Below, piece after piece: positions 1,608 to 16,477 of a stretch of 21,400 nt of DNA. The stretch is taken from positions 1 through 21,400 of IMG/VR virus record IMGVR_UViG_3300042539_000864. The stretch is one strand, 5' to 3'. The stretch comes from a virus. The notes under the pieces are model-generated. The model made no database searches and was not told where the DNA came from. It saw nothing but the letters and a program-made list of their open reading frames with translations. Numbering within the stretch: the first letter of the stretch is position 1; each line of letters starts with the position of its first letter. The translations under genes and the position numbers were made by a program.

Positions 1608-2137
1608 TTCTTCCACGCGACTCCCAGGCCGTAATCATCCGTGATGATCGTGTGCGGCATCCGGTGCAACTTCACGAACACATCGAAACACCGCATCAGG
1701 TCAGGGTGAGCCGGGTGCATGATGTCATGAAACACGACGCAGCCGCCGGGCTTCACGAGCGGCCATGTGTTCACGAGGTCGGCCATGCCGCCCTCGTATG
1801 AGTGGTCGCCATCCACGAGCACGAGGTCGAAAGCCTCGGCCTTCTCAGGCATCAGGGCCGGGATCGTGTCGCGGCTATTGCCGTCGAGGAACGCGCGGCG
1901 GCCGTCGAAGTTGAAGTCATCGAGCATCTGGTCGATGTGAGCGTGGCTGCCGCGTCCGGTGCCGCCGTAGTCGCTGCCCCATAAGTCGGCCACCCACACC
2001 TCACGCAGATGCGGCTGGGCGTTCTCCAGCACGACCCGCAGCGAGTCGCCTTCGCGCGTGCCGATTTCAAGGTAGTGCTGCACCGTGTGCCGCTGGCAGT
2101 GATCGGCAAGGTAGCGGTACAGGCTGGCGTTGCTCAT
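1604..2137 (-). CDS. Class I SAM-dependent methyltransferase (Methyltransf_24-like)
   Basis: This is a 177-residue protein. HYLEIGTREGDSL at residues 21-33 is the glycine-rich SAM-binding motif I. DLVLVDGDHSYEGGMADL at 104-121 is the characteristic VDGDHSYE signature of Methyltransf_24 proteins, and PLVKPGGCVVFHDI at about 126-139 is the following strand region. Such enzymes often sit in glycan or small-molecule modification loci. Here it is directly upstream of a glycosyltransferase and coupled to it by an ATGA overlap, so the two may act on the same molecule (inference). The start at 2137 is fixed by a second ATGA overlap, with the RusA stop. The frame stays open upstream, but that part is the antisense-free shadow of the rusA gene and is not used. 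Confidence 0.85.
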   Translation of the reverse strand: MSNASLYRYLADHCQRHTVQHYLEIGTREGDSLRVVLENAQPHLREVWVADLWGSDYGGTGRGSHAHIDQMLDDFNFDGRRAFLDGNSRDTIPALMPEKAEAFDLVLVDGDHSYEGGMADLVNTWPLVKPGGCVVFHDIMHPAHPDLMRCFDVFVKLHRMPHTIITDDYGLGVAWKK

Positions 2138-2535
2138 CCGATTCGCACGGTTGTCCGTGCCTCCGTTCCGTAGGACTTCTCGACCACCAGGCGGGCGACC
2201 TGCGAATCGTCTTCCCACGCGACGCCGTTGAGCGAGTCCAGAACGCTTTTTGTGGCGTTGTCGATGTCGAACCTGGGCAGCGCCGGGGCGTCGGCCTTCA
2301 GTCCACCTTTTCGCAGGTGCGACTTGGGGCGCGATGCCACGAAGTCGATCACGACGCTCACTGGATCTCCGTGCACGCCAGCCCCAGCGGCTCGAGCAGC
2401 CTCCGCAATCGCCTGGCGGTACGCATGCACCGCGTGCGTCTTCGGCACGTATGCCCGCGCGAACCCGCCACGAGTCGAGACTCGCGGCCTCGGCTGCGGA
2501 ACGGGCTCGCCTGGAACGGTGAACGTCAATGCCAT
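2134..2535 (-). CDS. rusA: RusA-like Holliday junction resolvase
   Basis: This is a 133-residue protein, the usual size of RusA resolvases, which cut Holliday junctions formed in phage recombination and replication. The N-terminus MALTFTVPGEPVPQPRPRVS is typical of the family (a beta-strand followed by a basic PRPR segment). The catalytic core is clear: D90 and D92 of PRFDIDNATKSVLDSL, with K96 and D100, and the acidic pair D109-D110 in WEDDSQV followed by K120. These correspond to the metal-binding aspartates and lysine of RusA. It probably acts with the RecT-like protein at 11,044-11,952. The next gene starts inside its stop codon (ATGA). Confidence 0.92.
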   Translation of the reverse strand: MALTFTVPGEPVPQPRPRVSTRGGFARAYVPKTHAVHAYRQAIAEAARAAGAGVHGDPVSVVIDFVASRPKSHLRKGGLKADAPALPRFDIDNATKSVLDSLNGVAWEDDSQVARLVVEKSYGTEARTTVRIG

Positions 2536-2809: not shown

Positions 2810-2818
2810 TGGTTCTCG

Positions 2819-3085
2819 CTACCCACCCGCAACGATCCTCTCGCAATGCTTGCATCGCTGGACTCCCTTTGCGAGCAGGCGAGCGGCGTACGATGTCTTT
2901 GGCTTCTCGTAGCACCACGCGCCACAAACAGCGCGGCCGGCGCTGTCGGTGCCGCCAGCGTCAGCAATCTTGATGCAGTGCAGGCGGGTCGCGTACCAGC
3001 CCGCGAACCACGCGAAAGCACCGTCTGCGGCAGGCAGTTTCTCATGTAACAGTTTTGGCGATTCGGCAACAGGTTTTTCGGTCAT
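2819..3085 (-). CDS. Small Cys-containing phage protein (probable zinc-binding)
   Basis: This is an 88-residue protein beginning MTEKPVAESPKLLHEKLP. The middle is aromatic (FAWFAGWYATRLHCIKIADA), and the C-terminal half carries CGAWC and CKHCERI, two Cys pairs spaced like a small treble-clef or zinc-ribbon knuckle. The function is unknown; many phages carry such small zinc-binding proteins. The start at 3085 has GGAG 6 bases upstream. A longer frame exists, but it would run through the attC-like hairpin and has no ribosome site. The stop codon is followed at once by CGAGAACC and then by the 2780-2809 hairpin. Confidence 0.65.
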   Translation of the reverse strand: MTEKPVAESPKLLHEKLPAADGAFAWFAGWYATRLHCIKIADAGGTDSAGRAVCGAWCYEKPKTSYAARLLAKGVQRCKHCERIVAGG

Positions 3086-3116
3086 GTCGTCTCCAGTAAC
3101 ATTGTGCCACTCAGCG

Positions 3117-3161
3117 AGAACCACGCGATGCAGCGGACGGGCCGCTGATCGCTGGCGTTCT
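3117..3161 (-). repeat. attC-like hairpin element 1
   Basis: On the plus strand the order is AGAAC (3117-3121), three unpaired bases, GCGAT (3125-3129), one extra G (3130), CAGCGG (3131-3136), a 5-base loop, CCGCTG (3142-3147), ATCGC (3148-3152), four unpaired bases and GTTCT (3157-3161). All three arm pairs are perfect complements. The order outer box, unpaired spacer, inner box, single extrahelical base, stem, loop is the architecture of integron attC sites. The stop codon of the zinc-knuckle gene (3160-3162) lies in the outer box, as in many integron cassettes. The outer boxes do not match the RYYYAAC/GTTRRRY consensus exactly. Relative to the genes, the extra base is on the opposite arm from the class 1 attC sites I remember. 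Confidence 0.5.
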
Positions 3162-3396
3162 ACGGATGTATTGCTGACGCCAGTTTGCACTCATCGCGGT
3201 GGCCTTGATTGTTCGGGAGGTCGCCATGCGAGTCAGCGCCATGTCCGGGCTTAATGCCACCACAGACCGGACAGCACGGCCAGCCAGTGCAATAAGAGTA
3301 GGTGGCCGACCACTCCAGCCCACTCAAGACAGCCACCGCAGAACCAGCGGATGCAAGAGACGGCTCGGCTGCGTCTTGCGTGTTGTCTGTGTTCAT
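3160..3396 (-). CDS. Small zinc-knuckle phage protein
   Basis: This is a 78-residue protein whose C-terminal half, WPCCPVCGGIKPGHGADSHG followed about ten residues later by HRDECKL, looks like the small CxxCGG...H...C domain found in many phage proteins that bind a structural zinc. The N-terminal 30 residues are low-complexity and probably disordered. The function is unknown. The start at 3396 has AGGAG 8 bases upstream. It lies 30 bases downstream of the HAD gene in the same direction, and its stop codon lies inside attC-like element 1, so with the HAD gene it forms a two-gene cassette. Confidence 0.6.
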   Translation of the reverse strand: MNTDNTQDAAEPSLASAGSAVAVLSGLEWSATYSYCTGWPCCPVCGGIKPGHGADSHGDLPNNQGHRDECKLASAIHP

Positions 3397-3426
3397 TGTT
3401 CGCCGCTCCTGATCCTTGTCGTTCTC

Positions 3427-3765
3427 TCAGGTAACCCCGACGATCCAACCGGGAGAATCGTCAATCCAGATGTCAACCGCGATGCCGCGCCGCTTGGCGT
3501 AATCGGCCTTCGGCTCGTCGTAAGAGAAGTGAGCCTCAACGTCGGTAGGCAGCGTCTCGCGGAGCTCCTTCATGTTGTCGAACGTCTTGCGGCGAGCAGT
3601 GACGCAGACGAACCGATGCCCGAACTTGCGGCCAACGTCCACCACTGCTGCCCAAAACGCCGGGTCTTCGGTGTAGGTGTCATCGTAGTCCAGTGCAATC
3701 GTCAACGTGCGGGCCGACGAGTGAGAACCACGCATCGAATCAAACCCGGCATCGTCCTGCGTCAT
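3427..3765 (-). CDS. HAD-superfamily phosphatase-like protein
   Basis: This is a 112-residue protein with all four HAD motifs in a minimal, capless core. Motif I is LDYDDT with D26 as likely nucleophile, D28 as general acid/base and T30. Motif II is the T56 of FVCVTARR. Motif III is a lysine of DEPKADYAKRRGI (K86 or K91). Motif IV is IWIDDSP with D102 and D103. The substrate is unknown; phage HAD proteins often act on nucleotides or polynucleotide ends. The ATG at 3765 has AGGAG 4-5 bases upstream. The Shine-Dalgarno and start codon lie in the loop of attC-like element 2, and the first 15 codons overlap its arm. A later start at the Met of MRGSH is possible. Confidence 0.75.
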   Translation of the reverse strand: MTQDDAGFDSMRGSHSSARTLTIALDYDDTYTEDPAFWAAVVDVGRKFGHRFVCVTARRKTFDNMKELRETLPTDVEAHFSYDEPKADYAKRRGIAVDIWIDDSPGWIVGVT

Positions 3766-3807
3766 GGTTGCTCCTGTGTTCGATGCCGCTGATCGCGGGC
3801 GTTCTCA
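3722..3807 (-). repeat. attC-like hairpin element 2
   Basis: TGAGAAC (3722-3728) is complementary to GTTCTCA (3801-3807), and GCATCGAA (3732-3739) to TTCGATGC (3779-3786). The unpaired spacers are 3 bases (left) and 14 bases (right), and the loop is 39 bases. The right part GCCGCTGATCGC-GGCGTTCT matches element 1 at 19 of 20 positions, and the left part GAGAACCACGC also matches. The stop codon of the upstream gene (3805-3807) forms part of the outer box, exactly as in element 1. The loop contains the Shine-Dalgarno and ATG of the HAD gene, so an RNA regulatory role is a second possibility. Confidence 0.5.
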
Positions 3808-4665
3808 GCCTAGACGCCGCAGTAATCCCAGTAATACTTCCGCCCGCCTCGCCTCTGCCTGCAAATCCCCATACCCGGCAAACCAGCGTATCGCCTCCCG
3901 CTCCTCGTCGGTGAGCGTGGCATCCATCGTCACAGTCACGTTGCCGCCGCACACCGACAGCGTGGCGTCCTGATCCGCGAGGCGGCGGATGGCGTCGCGC
4001 AGCCGTTCGATCTCGGCATCCCGCTCCGCGTCGGTGAGCGTGGGTTTTCCGCTTTCGCCGCTATTTCTGGCGTCGGAAAATGTGTCGCTGCTGGAAACTG
4101 GCGGCGAGCGGTAGAGCGGGACGACCTCGCTCCCCGGCTCGTCCTTCTGGCAGAAGATCGCCCTGTCTTTGATGTGCGACAGGTACGGGAAGTCGCGACC
4201 TGGCAGGGTCACCCACCACGCCACCGGCTGCGTACACTCCGGCGGTACGCTGCACTCGCCATGGGTAGTATGCAATGGCGGCGTAGCGGCGAGCGTCGGT
4301 GAGCGGTAGAGCGGGACGACTGCCGTGTCGAATGCGTAATCCGACTGCATATCCACCGCGTCGATGCGTGAGATGGATGTAGCGAGCACGCCGCCGCTGC
4401 TGGACGCCACGCCCCACGCTACCGGCTCCTGTGTGTCGCCGGTGCCCAAGCCGGGTCGGGTGGCCGCGTTATCGGTGCGGTCCCTGTCGGCGTCTGTACG
4501 GGCTCTCGCCGCCGGCGCGGCGTCATGATTCGTTCGCTCCCGCTCGCGGAGCATGGCGTCGGCCAGGGCGTAGGCCTCACCGGCAACGTCTTCCGGCGAG
4601 TGGTAGCCACATTCGCCTACCAGCCCCGTCAACACCGCAGCGGCGAAGTGGTCGCGGTCAGTCAT
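3805..4665 (-). CDS. Ea22-like phage protein with internal duplication
   Basis: This is a 286-residue protein. Residues 1-45 form a helical N-terminus, followed by a disordered Arg/Asp-rich linker. Two related units follow. Residues 80-123 start EPVAWG and end VVPLYRSP; residues 146-188 start QPVAWW and end VVPLYRSP. The PVAW...PLYxxP unit is typical of Ead/Ea22-like phage proteins, whose function is not established. The C-terminal part is a charged coiled coil and a short domain with an EREAIRWFAGYG motif. The start at 4665 is fixed by an ATGA overlap with the upstream regulator. The stop codon lies in attC-like element 2. Confidence 0.65.
   Translation of the reverse strand: MTDRDHFAAAVLTGLVGECGYHSPEDVAGEAYALADAMLRERERTNHDAAPAARARTDADRDRTDNAATRPGLGTGDTQEPVAWGVASSSGGVLATSISRIDAVDMQSDYAFDTAVVPLYRSPTLAATPPLHTTHGECSVPPECTQPVAWWVTLPGRDFPYLSHIKDRAIFCQKDEPGSEVVPLYRSPPVSSSDTFSDARNSGESGKPTLTDAERDAEIERLRDAIRRLADQDATLSVCGGNVTVTMDATLTDEEREAIRWFAGYGDLQAEARRAEVLLGLLRRLG
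4106..4320 (-). repeat. Exact 20-bp direct repeat inside the Ea22-like gene
   Basis: The 20-base sequence GAGCGGTAGAGCGGGACGAC occurs at 4106-4125 and again, unchanged, at 4301-4320. It encodes the VVPLYRS end of each PVAW unit. The rest of the two units differs. Identity at the third codon positions suggests a recent duplication or gene conversion rather than protein-level selection alone. Confidence 0.8.
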
Positions 4666-5105
4666 ACCCCGCACCTTGCCCGTCTCTTGCTGAGTTTGCT
4701 GTCGGTCGCCGTTGCCGTTTCCGCTCGCCGCTGTGCCATGTGACGCTCGCGGCATTCCCTCGCCCGCTCGGCAATCTCGTCAGGCGTCGGGTCATCCATC
4801 GAAAACGCCCGATGCTGTCTACCACGCGGGCCAAGCCCATAGCGTGCCGCGAGCCGCGTCAGGTTGCCCTCCGTCAGGCCCAGTTGCCGGGCCACCTCGG
4901 CGCGGGTCAGTGTCATGTCGCCCCACAAGCGGAACAGCATCGGCACGTCCACCTGTCGGGCACGCCTCGGCAGACGCATCTCGCACGCCTTCCGAAGCAC
5001 CGTGTTGCGGTGAATGTCGAACCGCTCCGCGATGCGGTCAATCGACAAGCCCTCTGCCCAGAGACGGGCAAACTCCTGATGGTCTACATCGACGTTGCGT
5101 GGCAT
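4662..5105 (-). CDS. Tandem helix-turn-helix transcriptional regulator
   Basis: This is a 147-residue protein with two HTH units in series. The first, residues about 10-48, has FARLWAEGLSIDRIAERFDI followed by HRNTVLRKACEMRLP. The second, 56-95, has LFRLWGDMTLTRAEVARQLG followed by LTEGNLTRLAARYGLGPRGR. The C-terminal DDPTPDEIAERARECRERHM segment is a motif I associate with small phage and alphaproteobacterial-type regulators of this build. It probably binds DNA; the target is unknown. The start at 5105 has AAAGGA 5 bases upstream. The leader contains an 11-bp inverted repeat (5126-5175) that may be an autoregulatory site. It ends in an ATGA overlap with the next gene. Confidence 0.75.
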   Translation of the reverse strand: MPRNVDVDHQEFARLWAEGLSIDRIAERFDIHRNTVLRKACEMRLPRRARQVDVPMLFRLWGDMTLTRAEVARQLGLTEGNLTRLAARYGLGPRGRQHRAFSMDDPTPDEIAERARECRERHMAQRRAETATATDSKLSKRRARCGV

Positions 5106-14031: not shown

Positions 14032-14054
14032 GGGCAGAAAAAAGGGGGTGCGAG

Positions 14055-14972
14055 ATGACGTTGCGAGAGTTGTTGGATCGGTACGCCCTGCTGATGAATC
14101 TGTCGGATCGGTCGGTGTCGCTATACGGTCACACCATCGACAAGTTCGCAGAGTTCCTGGGGCGCGAGCCCATGGTCGCGGACCTCGAAGACGTGGCGGT
14201 GTCGAAGTTCTTGCGGTGGCGGGCGACCAACCCGTGCCGAGGCCGCGTGGTCAGCCCGCACACCGTGGCCAAAGACCGCAGCCAACTGCTGGCGATCTGG
14301 ACCTGGGCGTGCAAGAAAAAGTTGCACGCCGGCGAGTGGCCGGGACTGCCACGCCAAAAGCGGGTGAAGCGGGCACCGACGGCGTACACCGTCGATGAAA
14401 TGAGCAGGCTAGTGAAGGCTGCACGGCAACGCCGCACGATGATGTCTGGCCTGCCGTCAGCCTGGTGGTGGAGCACCCTGCTGCAGGCCGCATGGCAGAC
14501 CGGCGAGCGAATCGGCGCCCTGCTGAATCTCCGGTGGCGTGAGGTCGATACGGCCAGCCATAGGCTTCTATTCCTTGCCGAGACACGCAAGGGCCGCGAG
14601 CGGGATCTGGTGTCGCCGATCACCGCCGAACTGGCTGCCGAACTGGATGCGCACAGAGGCCCGCCAGACGCTCTGGTGTGGCCCAGGACAGGGCATCCGC
14701 TGTCGCACTATGCGTCCATGCGTCTGCTGTGCAAGCGGGCTGGCGTGCCATCTAGGGCGTTCCACGCGATCCGCAAGGCGAGCGCGTCGTACGTCGCTGC
14801 TGGAGGAGGTGACGCCACGGCCCACCTCGGGCACGCGGATCCGGCGATGACGAGAGGGCACTACCTAGACCCGCGAATCACGGAGACGGCACGCGGGCTC
14901 GACTACCTGCCGCCGCTCGACCTCAATGGGCCACCCAAGGACGAGGAAGGGCCGCCCAGGAAGCCACGGTAG
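14055..14972 (+). CDS. int: Tyrosine-family phage integrase
   Basis: This is a 305-residue site-specific recombinase that would insert and excise the phage genome. Residues 1-90 form the SAM-like core-binding domain (MTLRELLDRYALLMNLSDRS onwards). The catalytic residues are in order: R152 in QTGERIGALLNLRW, K179 in ETRKGRERD, H237 and R240 in FHAIRK, H260 in HLGHADPAM and the nucleophile Y270 in TRGHYLDPR. All are present, so it should be active. The start at 14,055 has AAGGGGG 5-6 bases upstream; an upstream ATG in frame (14,004) lies in the promoter. It lacks a long arm-binding N-terminal domain. It is the first gene of the plus-strand island. Confidence 0.95.
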   Translation: MTLRELLDRYALLMNLSDRSVSLYGHTIDKFAEFLGREPMVADLEDVAVSKFLRWRATNPCRGRVVSPHTVAKDRSQLLAIWTWACKKKLHAGEWPGLPRQKRVKRAPTAYTVDEMSRLVKAARQRRTMMSGLPSAWWWSTLLQAAWQTGERIGALLNLRWREVDTASHRLLFLAETRKGRERDLVSPITAELAAELDAHRGPPDALVWPRTGHPLSHYASMRLLCKRAGVPSRAFHAIRKASASYVAAGGGDATAHLGHADPAMTRGHYLDPRITETARGLDYLPPLDLNGPPKDEEGPPRKPR

Positions 14973-15092: not shown

Positions 15093-15371
15093 ATGAGCTA
15101 CATGAAAGACCTCGACATTCGGCTACGCAACGGCGGCGATGACGCGATTGCGGCGGCGTGCGAACTGATGCCGAAGTGGATTTCTGTCTGGGAACAATTG
15201 CCAGCACTCAACACGCGAGTCCTGGTGCTCGTGGATTGCAAGCCGCACGAGCATCCGCACACGATCGGCGCGTTCATGTTCTACGGCAACTGGGAACTGG
15301 ACGCCGAATACGAAGAGGCCACCGAGCCGAGCTACTGGATGCCGTTGAGCGACCCGCCGGAGGTGAAGTGA
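15093..15371 (+). CDS. DUF551-like phage protein
   Basis: This is a 92-residue protein. The DUF551 pattern is clear: WISVWEQLPALNTRVLVLVD at residues 29-48, a central IGAFMFYGNWELDAEYEE strand region and the terminal SYWMPLSDPPEV. DUF551 proteins are very common in phages and prophages and have no established function. It starts at 15,093 with GGAG 6 bases upstream; an ATG three codons later is also possible. Its last codons contain the Shine-Dalgarno of the next gene, whose ATG overlaps its stop by one base. Confidence 0.8.
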   Translation: MSYMKDLDIRLRNGGDDAIAAACELMPKWISVWEQLPALNTRVLVLVDCKPHEHPHTIGAFMFYGNWELDAEYEEATEPSYWMPLSDPPEVK

Positions 15372-15709
15372 TGGAACTAGTAACGCGGCACACGATGGCA
15401 GCAGGAGCGGCGAATCGGTGGTTTGACGTTTACCGAGGAGACCGTGACGGAAAGGCAGCCGCCATACGGGCTCTTGGTGAATCTCCCGATCCAGACGCCG
15501 TCGATGCAATCATTGGCAACGGCAGTTGGACTAGGGTGCCGCAATGCAATGAATGCAAAACGAACGGTGCTGCGGTTGTCCAAATAGGCGACGAGCCAGA
15601 CTACGAGTCTCATACTGCCTGGGTCTGCGAGGGCTGCCTGAAAAAGGCGCTGGCGTTGATTTGCCCGCGATACTGGATGCCGGTTCAAGCACCGCCGGAG
15701 GTGAAGTGA
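15371..15709 (+). CDS. Small zinc-ribbon phage protein with DUF551-like tail
   Basis: This is a 112-residue protein. Residues about 59-92 contain CNECKTNG and CEGCLKKA, two CxxC pairs about 28 residues apart, as in a zinc ribbon. The C-terminus RYWMPVQAPPEVK is nearly the same as the end of the DUF551 protein before it, but the WIxVxExLP part of that domain is missing, so this looks like another protein carrying the end of a DUF551 unit. The function is unknown. The start at 15,371 is fixed by the TGATG overlap and embedded Shine-Dalgarno. Confidence 0.7.
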   Translation: MELVTRHTMAAGAANRWFDVYRGDRDGKAAAIRALGESPDPDAVDAIIGNGSWTRVPQCNECKTNGAAVVQIGDEPDYESHTAWVCEGCLKKALALICPRYWMPVQAPPEVK

Positions 15710-15912
15710 TGCCTTGCCCCATCTGCGACCAGAAGCCGATGAACTGCGACTGCACAGAGGCAGAGAAGCGGATGTATAGCGAGGCGGAAGACTTGGAGAA
15801 TGAGATCACACGCCTGCGGATGCTGATCCAGAACGCCGCGTACTTGCTTCAAGGCTCTCCGGTGGGAAGCGGGTGTTATGAAGCGTGGCAGATACTGACG
15901 GAGGTGAAGTGA
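15709..15912 (+). CDS. Very small Cys/coiled-coil phage protein
   Basis: This is a 67-residue protein starting MPCPICDQKPMNCDCTEAEK. The four Cys residues (CPIC and CDC) may bind zinc, and the following helix (YSEAEDLENEITRLRMLIQN) looks like a short coiled coil. The function is unknown. The start at 15,709 is fixed by the TGATG overlap with the previous stop and by the Shine-Dalgarno inside that gene. It ends TEVK, with the same module driving the next gene. Confidence 0.7.
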   Translation: MPCPICDQKPMNCDCTEAEKRMYSEAEDLENEITRLRMLIQNAAYLLQGSPVGSGCYEAWQILTEVK

Positions 15913-16013
15913 TGAATGGCCAGGATCGAAGAATGTTCTATGGAATAGTCTTCTATGTCTGCATCGACGCCCTTGGAAAAGTGTCTGACTTCATCGCCCG
16001 GCTCGCTGGATGA
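15912..16013 (+). CDS. 33-residue peptide gene
   Basis: The ATG at 15,912 follows the third copy of the coupling module and is in frame for 33 codons to a TGA at 16,011-16,013. The peptide begins MNGQDRRMFYGIVFYVCIDA and has a short hydrophobic, aromatic middle, possibly a weak membrane segment. Its stop overlaps the ATG of the next gene as ATGA. The strong ribosome site and both couplings suggest that it is translated, though it may serve mainly as a coupling leader. Confidence 0.55.
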   Translation: MNGQDRRMFYGIVFYVCIDALGKVSDFIARLAG

Positions 16014-16477
16014 CGCTAGAGGCGGCCGAAACAGGCGTAGACTCGCTGGACGGCGGCGGTACGATGGCGGGCATGGAAGACATCATCGCCCGCATCGACG
16101 CCCTCTTGGCGAACACGCCGCAGAGCGAGATCGAAGAGTTTGAGGTGACTCGCTGTCTGCGGGATTGCCGAGACGAGATCATCGCCGCCCGAGCCTGTGC
16201 CGAGATGATGCTGCAAGGCACCGGCCAGCGGCTTGCCGAAGGCATGGCAGAGCGAGTCATCAACGGTCAGACGGTTGGGGCTTGGATCGCGGTGAGCGAG
16301 CGAATGCCGGAAGAGTACGAGCGAGTGATCGGCTGGCGGGCTGGCTTGGTGCGTGCGGGAGAAGTCTGGCGTAACGAAAGCGGCGGGTGGCTTTGCGGCG
16401 ACTGCGAGCCTGCCGGTGGGATCACCCACTGGATGCCGCTACCCGAACCGCCGGCCAATTATCCAGAATTATCCTGA
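16010..16477 (+). CDS. Second DUF551-like protein with helical N-terminal part
   Basis: This is a 155-residue protein. Residues about 20-80 form a helical region (MEDIIARIDALLANTPQSEI and later CRDEIIAARACAEMMLQGTG). The C-terminal 65 residues are a DUF551 domain: WIAVSERMPEEYERVIGW, a central GEVWRNESGGWLC and HWMPLPEPP near the end. The function is unknown. The start at 16,010 is supported by the ATGA overlap with the 33-residue peptide gene. A Met at 16,064 (start of the helical region) is a plausible alternative, as the first 18 residues look unstructured. Confidence 0.75.
   Translation: MTLEAAETGVDSLDGGGTMAGMEDIIARIDALLANTPQSEIEEFEVTRCLRDCRDEIIAARACAEMMLQGTGQRLAEGMAERVINGQTVGAWIAVSERMPEEYERVIGWRAGLVRAGEVWRNESGGWLCGDCEPAGGITHWMPLPEPPANYPELS

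Follow-up and report, generated by a model that had tools for sequence, protein, structure and literature searches.

The window analysed here is a 21.4-kb viral record that carries genes characteristic of temperate phages, including those for RusA, RecT-like, replication initiation, sliding clamp, ParB-like and phage integrase proteins, and we regard it as a fragment of a temperate phage of freshwater type. Just 5' of the rusA-like gene, three sites resembling integron attC recombination sites follow one another on the plus strand, accompanied by small open reading frames (ORFs) on the minus strand (Table 1).

Table 1. Positions and properties of the rusA-like gene, cassettes, attC sites and ORFs in the window.
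Feature	Position	Strand	Properties
rusA-like Holliday junction resolvase gene	2134-2535	-	phrog_140, E 4e-31; anchors the position of the array
Cassette 0	2813-3157	+	G|TT cut on either side; termini GTTCTCGC / GCGAGAAC complementary throughout (5/5)
88-aa ORF of cassette 0	2819-3085	-	Reads against the attC; no family matched
attC 1, short class	3114-3164	+	R1 47.0 bits, E 4e-14; fold z -2.7/-3.4
Parts of attC 1			R'' AAC 3119-3121; spacer; L'' 3127-3136 (one extra G); loop; L' 3142-3150; spacer; R' GTT 3157-3159
Cassette A	3158-3421	+	Ends complementary 4/5
'Zinc-knuckle' ORF of cassette A	3160-3396	-	CPVCGG motif; start and first ~18 codons inside attC 2
attC 2, class 4	3337-3428	+	AAC 3342-3344, GTT 3421-3423; R1 28.6 bits, E 9.5e-8
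Cassette B	3422-3801	+	Ends complementary 4/5
HAD-like ORF of cassette B	3427-3765	-	DYDDT motif; start inside attC 3, leader MTQDDAGFDSMRGS
attC 3, degenerate/chimeric	3721-3808	+	AAC 3726-3728, GTT 3801-3803; R1 14.4 bits, E 0.0075
ORF next to cassette B	3805-4755	-	Stop in right R box of attC 3

The original prediction for this locus had proposed an attC covariance model as a check. We used R1, a home-made planctomycete model distinct from those of IntegronFinder and HattCI, which was built only from 11 bacterial attCs on contigs with an integron integrase and whose E-values are rough. Scanned over the whole window with filters off, R1 finds three sites that stand out from background, each of them on the plus strand, the next best match having an E-value of 0.94. 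An Rfam scan of positions 2900-4000 gave nothing up to an E-value of 5. Two of the three sites correspond to hairpins with common outer parts that had been predicted at 3117-3161 and 3722-3807; both are present there, and each holds the stop of the gene upstream of it, the minus-strand stops falling at GTT|CTA (3160-3162) and at 3805-3807. The attC order proposed for both elements holds for the first. AttC 1 has the outer stem, unpaired spacer, inner stem and single extra base of a hairpin attC, and folds better than its shuffles on both strands. AttC 3 lacks this anatomy: it folds no better than shuffled sequence on either strand (z -0.2 and -0.4), and most pairs in its model alignment are non-standard, with many broken. 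Its left half resembles the class 5 'MTQDDAGSAPM' class, its right half the 'CTCCTGTGTTCGATGC' class; it is a degenerate site, seemingly a chimera of two attC classes. AttC 2, which has dozens of copies in other viral contigs, had been overlooked. Because it lies between the other two, within the N-terminus of the zinc-knuckle ORF, what was supposed to be one two-gene cassette of about 640 bases is in fact two cassettes.

We considered an attC orientation running with the genes, on the minus strand, and rejected it. In a set that took in some bacterial loci, the hairpin moves together with its left spacer; moreover, the arrays found beside the integron integrase, IntI, extend in the plus sense, and a plus-strand reading of the attC puts the extra base on L'', the arm where it is usually found. 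The placement of this base on the unexpected arm, which the original prediction had counted against an attC, was therefore a misreading.

The best-supported cassette of the window, cassette 0, lies outside the interval that had been singled out. Two other viral contigs, L015 and L161, carry its 304-bp spacer at 97-98% identity between unrelated flanks, and the homology (window 2812-3159, about 97%) starts at the G of the GTT at 2812 and ends at the GTT at 3157-3159. There is no attC at the left edge of this cassette; directly before its GTT, where one would be expected, lies a perfect inverted repeat (GAATTAGGC...GCCTAATTC, 2789-2811), which may be a terminator or else a secondary site of insertion. 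The body of cassette A recurs in another contig (L045, 86%), behind another attC class. The motifs behind the predicted HAD and zinc-knuckle genes are present, but these remain motif-level calls, with no Pfam or NCBIfam match at E<0.01 for either ORF. Relatives of the HAD protein in 23 viral loci are mostly without attCs, and the HAD gene itself is therefore not a cassette hallmark. The ORF next to cassette B is a composite of a type ('PVAW..VPLYR..LTDEERE..LLRRLG') often seen in phage cassette proteins, and looks as if repeated 'PVAW...VPLYR' and 'LTDEERE...LLRRLG' modules, each of which phage cassettes contain singly, had been fused. Elsewhere in the window (15093-16477, plus strand), a series of small DUF551-like ORFs is linked by a repeated junction like CCGCCGGAGGTGAAGTGATG, in three copies, which couples stop, Shine-Dalgarno sequence and start; these ORFs are of the same gene type as cassettes, and a convincing attC match is absent there. 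Overall, the proposal of a captured integron cassette had the kind of element right, in that a model of IntI-linked attCs matches all three sites and the junctions are integron-like. It erred in the details, since there are three cassettes, one of its two elements is degenerate, and the array is one instance of a widespread phage family.

Four scans recovered this attC family at a minimum of about 157 viral loci, with more than 430 sites in at least five classes distinguished by size or loop. Many phages have these sites with differing genes between them, rather than fixed hairpins around invariant genes. Thirty control loci (294 kb), visually selected as chance hits of the search pattern and so not a random sample of viral DNA, contained no family sites; R1 gave 71 matches to an E-value of 0.1 on 17 further sources and none better than 0.04 in eight viral control loci. 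Over 449 unique elements the inner stem (L''/L') covaries, with 364 double-change cells against 99 in shuffled alignments (maximum 127), a count to be taken as a guide and not a probability because the sequences are related. The extra base occupies a single position and is G in 413 of these elements. AAC and GTT are nearly invariant, the RRRY of GTTRRRY is poorly kept, and GTTCT occurs in 205 of 314 cases in a set that took in some bacterial loci. This poor fit counts against the cassette reading, although the IntI-linked bacterial relatives are similarly loose. As regular-expression counts of elements miss classes, the cassette-end and polarity tests described below were repeated with the covariance model. 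The sources are metagenomic contigs, partly related, and pair and cassette counts are not independent.

The arrays also keep a fixed place and orientation. All attCs of a locus point the same way in 105 of 107 loci, and among the 34 array loci that have a RusA homologue, 29 carry an attC within 2 kb on the 5' side of its gene, with 83 of 84 elements antiparallel to it. The layout of the window matches that of these other loci. Phage_portal was present in 19 and TerL in 9 of 50 array records.

IntI was absent from the window and from all 50 array-bearing viral records examined, which are fragments; the arrays are therefore CALINs (attC clusters lacking an integrase) and not integrons. The motif is also held by 21 bacterial genomes, mostly Planctomycetota bins, and 13 of these have an IntI over the model cut-off, which in five cases (L211, L213, L215, L216 and L221) lies within a few kb of attCs of the family. 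This sharing of motifs suggests that the hosts are mostly Planctomycetota. The class 4 pattern was not found in 294 genomes of the phylum, where the use of an exact pattern rules out strict copies only, and the short attC consensus had no match among 50,697 isolate phage records. Planctomycete-like attC motifs were also seen in bins labelled Kuenenia, Afipia and Myxococcota (L129, L132, L133 and L139), reflecting either mis-binning or a wide spread.

Two bacterial integrons appear, from their sequence, to contain phage-type cassettes. In a labelled planctomycete bin (L122), an IntI gene and a class 2 attC adjoin a reversed DUF551 cassette. In a contig labelled Cyanobium sp. FGCU52 (L135), IntI is followed first by reversed ORFs with attCs of class 4 and the short class, then by forward PemK cassettes; this contig (JANWUS010000039.1, L135:5069-7725) also has RecR-like and LipA-like ORFs, and its reversed cassettes share one array with two near-identical forward cassettes that carry a PemK/MazF-like gene. 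Additionally, a second contig of this Cyanobium assembly (L123) and a viral contig (L097) have a cassette in common at 93%.

The enzyme that moves the cassettes could instead be a phage-encoded tyrosine recombinase, such as the one at 14046-14972 in the window, rather than a host IntI. PF00589 was found in 25 of the 50 array records, and the window protein is XerC/XerD-like. However, at 21 bits against an IntI model cut-off of 265 this protein was rejected as an IntI, half of the array records (fragments, as noted) show no recombinase, and the same attCs adjoin true IntI genes in bacteria. Taken together, these observations make a phage enzyme unlikely.

In integrons, the bases that follow G|TT are the start of the next cassette, whose opposite end they pair with. 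The phage arrays follow this logic. By position after GTT, spacer ends are complementary at frequencies of.95,.97,.95,.82 and.75 before falling to.37, against.62,.72,.46,.25 and.37 in shuffled sequence, in a set that took in some bacterial loci. With sites defined by the covariance model in six loci, all viral, 47 of 53 cassettes have ends complementary at four or more of five positions, compared with 16 of 60 when shuffled, and the two flanks of one and the same element match at this level in only 19 of 68. In bacterial arrays the ends are complementary in 43 of 54 cassettes. The 5' end of such a cassette pairs with its own R'', and in circular form the cassette would rebuild one attC.

Exchange of the units can be followed between contigs. 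We found 37 pairs of homologous cassettes in different contigs with both neighbours different, a count of pairs of which some are bacterial-bacterial or between related contigs. Cassette 0, in its three contigs, shows exchange of an exact unit, with a cut that can be placed from sequence no finer than GTT. When a recurring spacer appears in a new context, the length of its hairpin differs in about a third of cases, and such differences are not explained by pure G|TT exchange.

These data bear on the possibility that the arrays are fossils of a single capture from a bacterial integron, now passively inherited and decaying. The degenerate attC 3 and the missing attC at the left edge of cassette 0 are what such decay would leave, and because of them the array of the window may be partly immobile. 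Nevertheless, cassettes at 97-100% identity recur with differing neighbours on both sides, and L'' and L' still covary, so that we find passive inheritance quite improbable. A further view, that the hairpins are conserved linkers, namely short islands of homology at gene boundaries that serve RecT/RusA-type homologous recombination with no site-specific enzyme, finds some support in the RecT-like and RusA proteins of the phage, in the position of the arrays next to rusA, and in the swapping of hairpin classes that is sometimes seen on the same spacer. We judge it very unlikely, as linkers of this kind would neither give complementarity of spacer ends over just the R-box positions nor put the sites in bacterial integron arrays beside IntI.

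The polarity of the cassette genes separates the phage arrays from those of bacterial chromosomes. Taking the longest ORF between sites defined by the covariance model, 50 of 53 phage cassettes (viral loci only) read against their attC, whereas 44 of 54 bacterial chromosomal cassettes read with it and 10 are reversed (Fisher p about 1e-16, the cells not being fully independent). The same model and method were applied to both sets, with differing spacer limits. Phage cassettes thus depart from the usual polarity of gene with attC, which is not strictly defining for cassettes. In the same viral set, 49 cassettes have a start supported by a Shine-Dalgarno sequence, 31 of these starts lying inside the attC, and 44 have their stop codon no more than 12 nt from the boundary of the cassette. 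Since starts lie inside the attC, families of cassette proteins have common attC-encoded N-termini, such as MTKEVDEMSAASRGS, MNTDNTQDAAEPSPASAGS and MTQDDAGSAPMLGS, again in viral loci only. The short-class attC, read on the minus strand across all loci, is seemingly free of stops in three frames (PLHRVV, RCIAWF and AASRGS in different cassette proteins), and would therefore be translatable whatever the frame of the junction. The cassette bodies encode C5 and N4/N6 methyltransferases, HNH and DUF551 proteins. That the hairpins, which are G+C-rich, lie between genes and hold start codons and Shine-Dalgarno sites, are only transcription terminators or translation regulators is hardly credible given the spacer-end complementarity and exact junctions, which are not expected of regulators, although a regulatory side role would be compatible with cassette exchange.

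Our analyses establish the anatomy of the attCs and their homology to IntI-linked bacterial attCs, the complementarity of cassette ends, the exact GTT-to-GTT exchange of a window cassette among three viral contigs, the absence of IntI from the viral records examined, and arrays of fixed place and orientation with inverted genes, stops packed against boundaries and attC-encoded leaders. We therefore think it very probable, on sequence grounds, that positions 2813-3801 of the window form a short CALIN just 5' of rusA, whose units would be joined by a host IntI. Each unit would be a DNA segment running from TT to an attC hairpin followed by G; the host-encoded integrase would bind attC in its folded, single-stranded form and link the units at G|TT, and phages would thereby swap small early genes in cassette form. 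The simplest enzyme for this purpose is a host IntI, which would presumably act in trans, and the exchange would take place during infection or lysogeny. The inversion would place the cassettes in the phage's own transcription unit and not under the integron Pc promoter. Extending this reading, it is tempting to hypothesize, and we lean slightly towards the idea, that phages of freshwater Planctomycetota maintain a private cassette economy, with a bay 5' of rusA, inverted cassettes, attCs that code for leaders, shuffling by host IntI, and spill-back into chromosomal integrons, where the cassettes would lie silent and backwards.

The shuffling of phage modules is usually ascribed chiefly to homologous or illegitimate recombination. 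Our data suggest that phages may trade early genes via the integron machinery of their hosts, and site-specific cassette exchange that relies on a host enzyme would constitute a distinct route of phage evolution. It would also connect phage early genes (methyltransferases, HNH, DUF551) with bacterial integrons in both directions, and the direction of traffic could be counted, since the inverted polarity makes phage-born cassettes recognisable in bacterial arrays. In addition, it raises the question of whether one attC serves as both a DNA recombination site and a protein-coding leader.

Conserved short sequences between exchangeable genes are familiar from mosaic phages as boundary or linker sequences. 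The phage attC arrays differ from these linkers, which lack R-box logic and any connection with IntI. Closer in kind are the phage CALINs described by Qi et al. 2023 (PMC9892861), who found 17 CALINs in 10,705 genomes and showed that five of six phage attCs are recombined by the class 1 IntI1 in E. coli; planctomycete-type sites are not mentioned there. Those elements resemble ours in being attC arrays without IntI in phage genomes, whereas here one coherent attC family occupies no fewer than about 157 viral loci, with a fixed position by rusA, inverted genes and attC-encoded leaders. The chromosomal integrons of planctomycetes, whose attC type was modelled previously (PMC8352920), share the same attC family by covariance model but differ in that their cassettes accompany IntI and mostly read with the attC. 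Atypical polarity has also been described for Treponema integrons, in which cassette insertion is highly orientation specific (PMC3607928); there, however, it concerns intI relative to the array and the cassette genes keep the canonical polarity, whereas in the phage arrays the cassette genes themselves are reversed. Searches of the open-access literature brought up no description of a phage-wide family of inverted cassettes. Thus, while CALINs in phages were already known, a pool of cassettes that is fixed in place, inverted and leader-encoding appears to be new.
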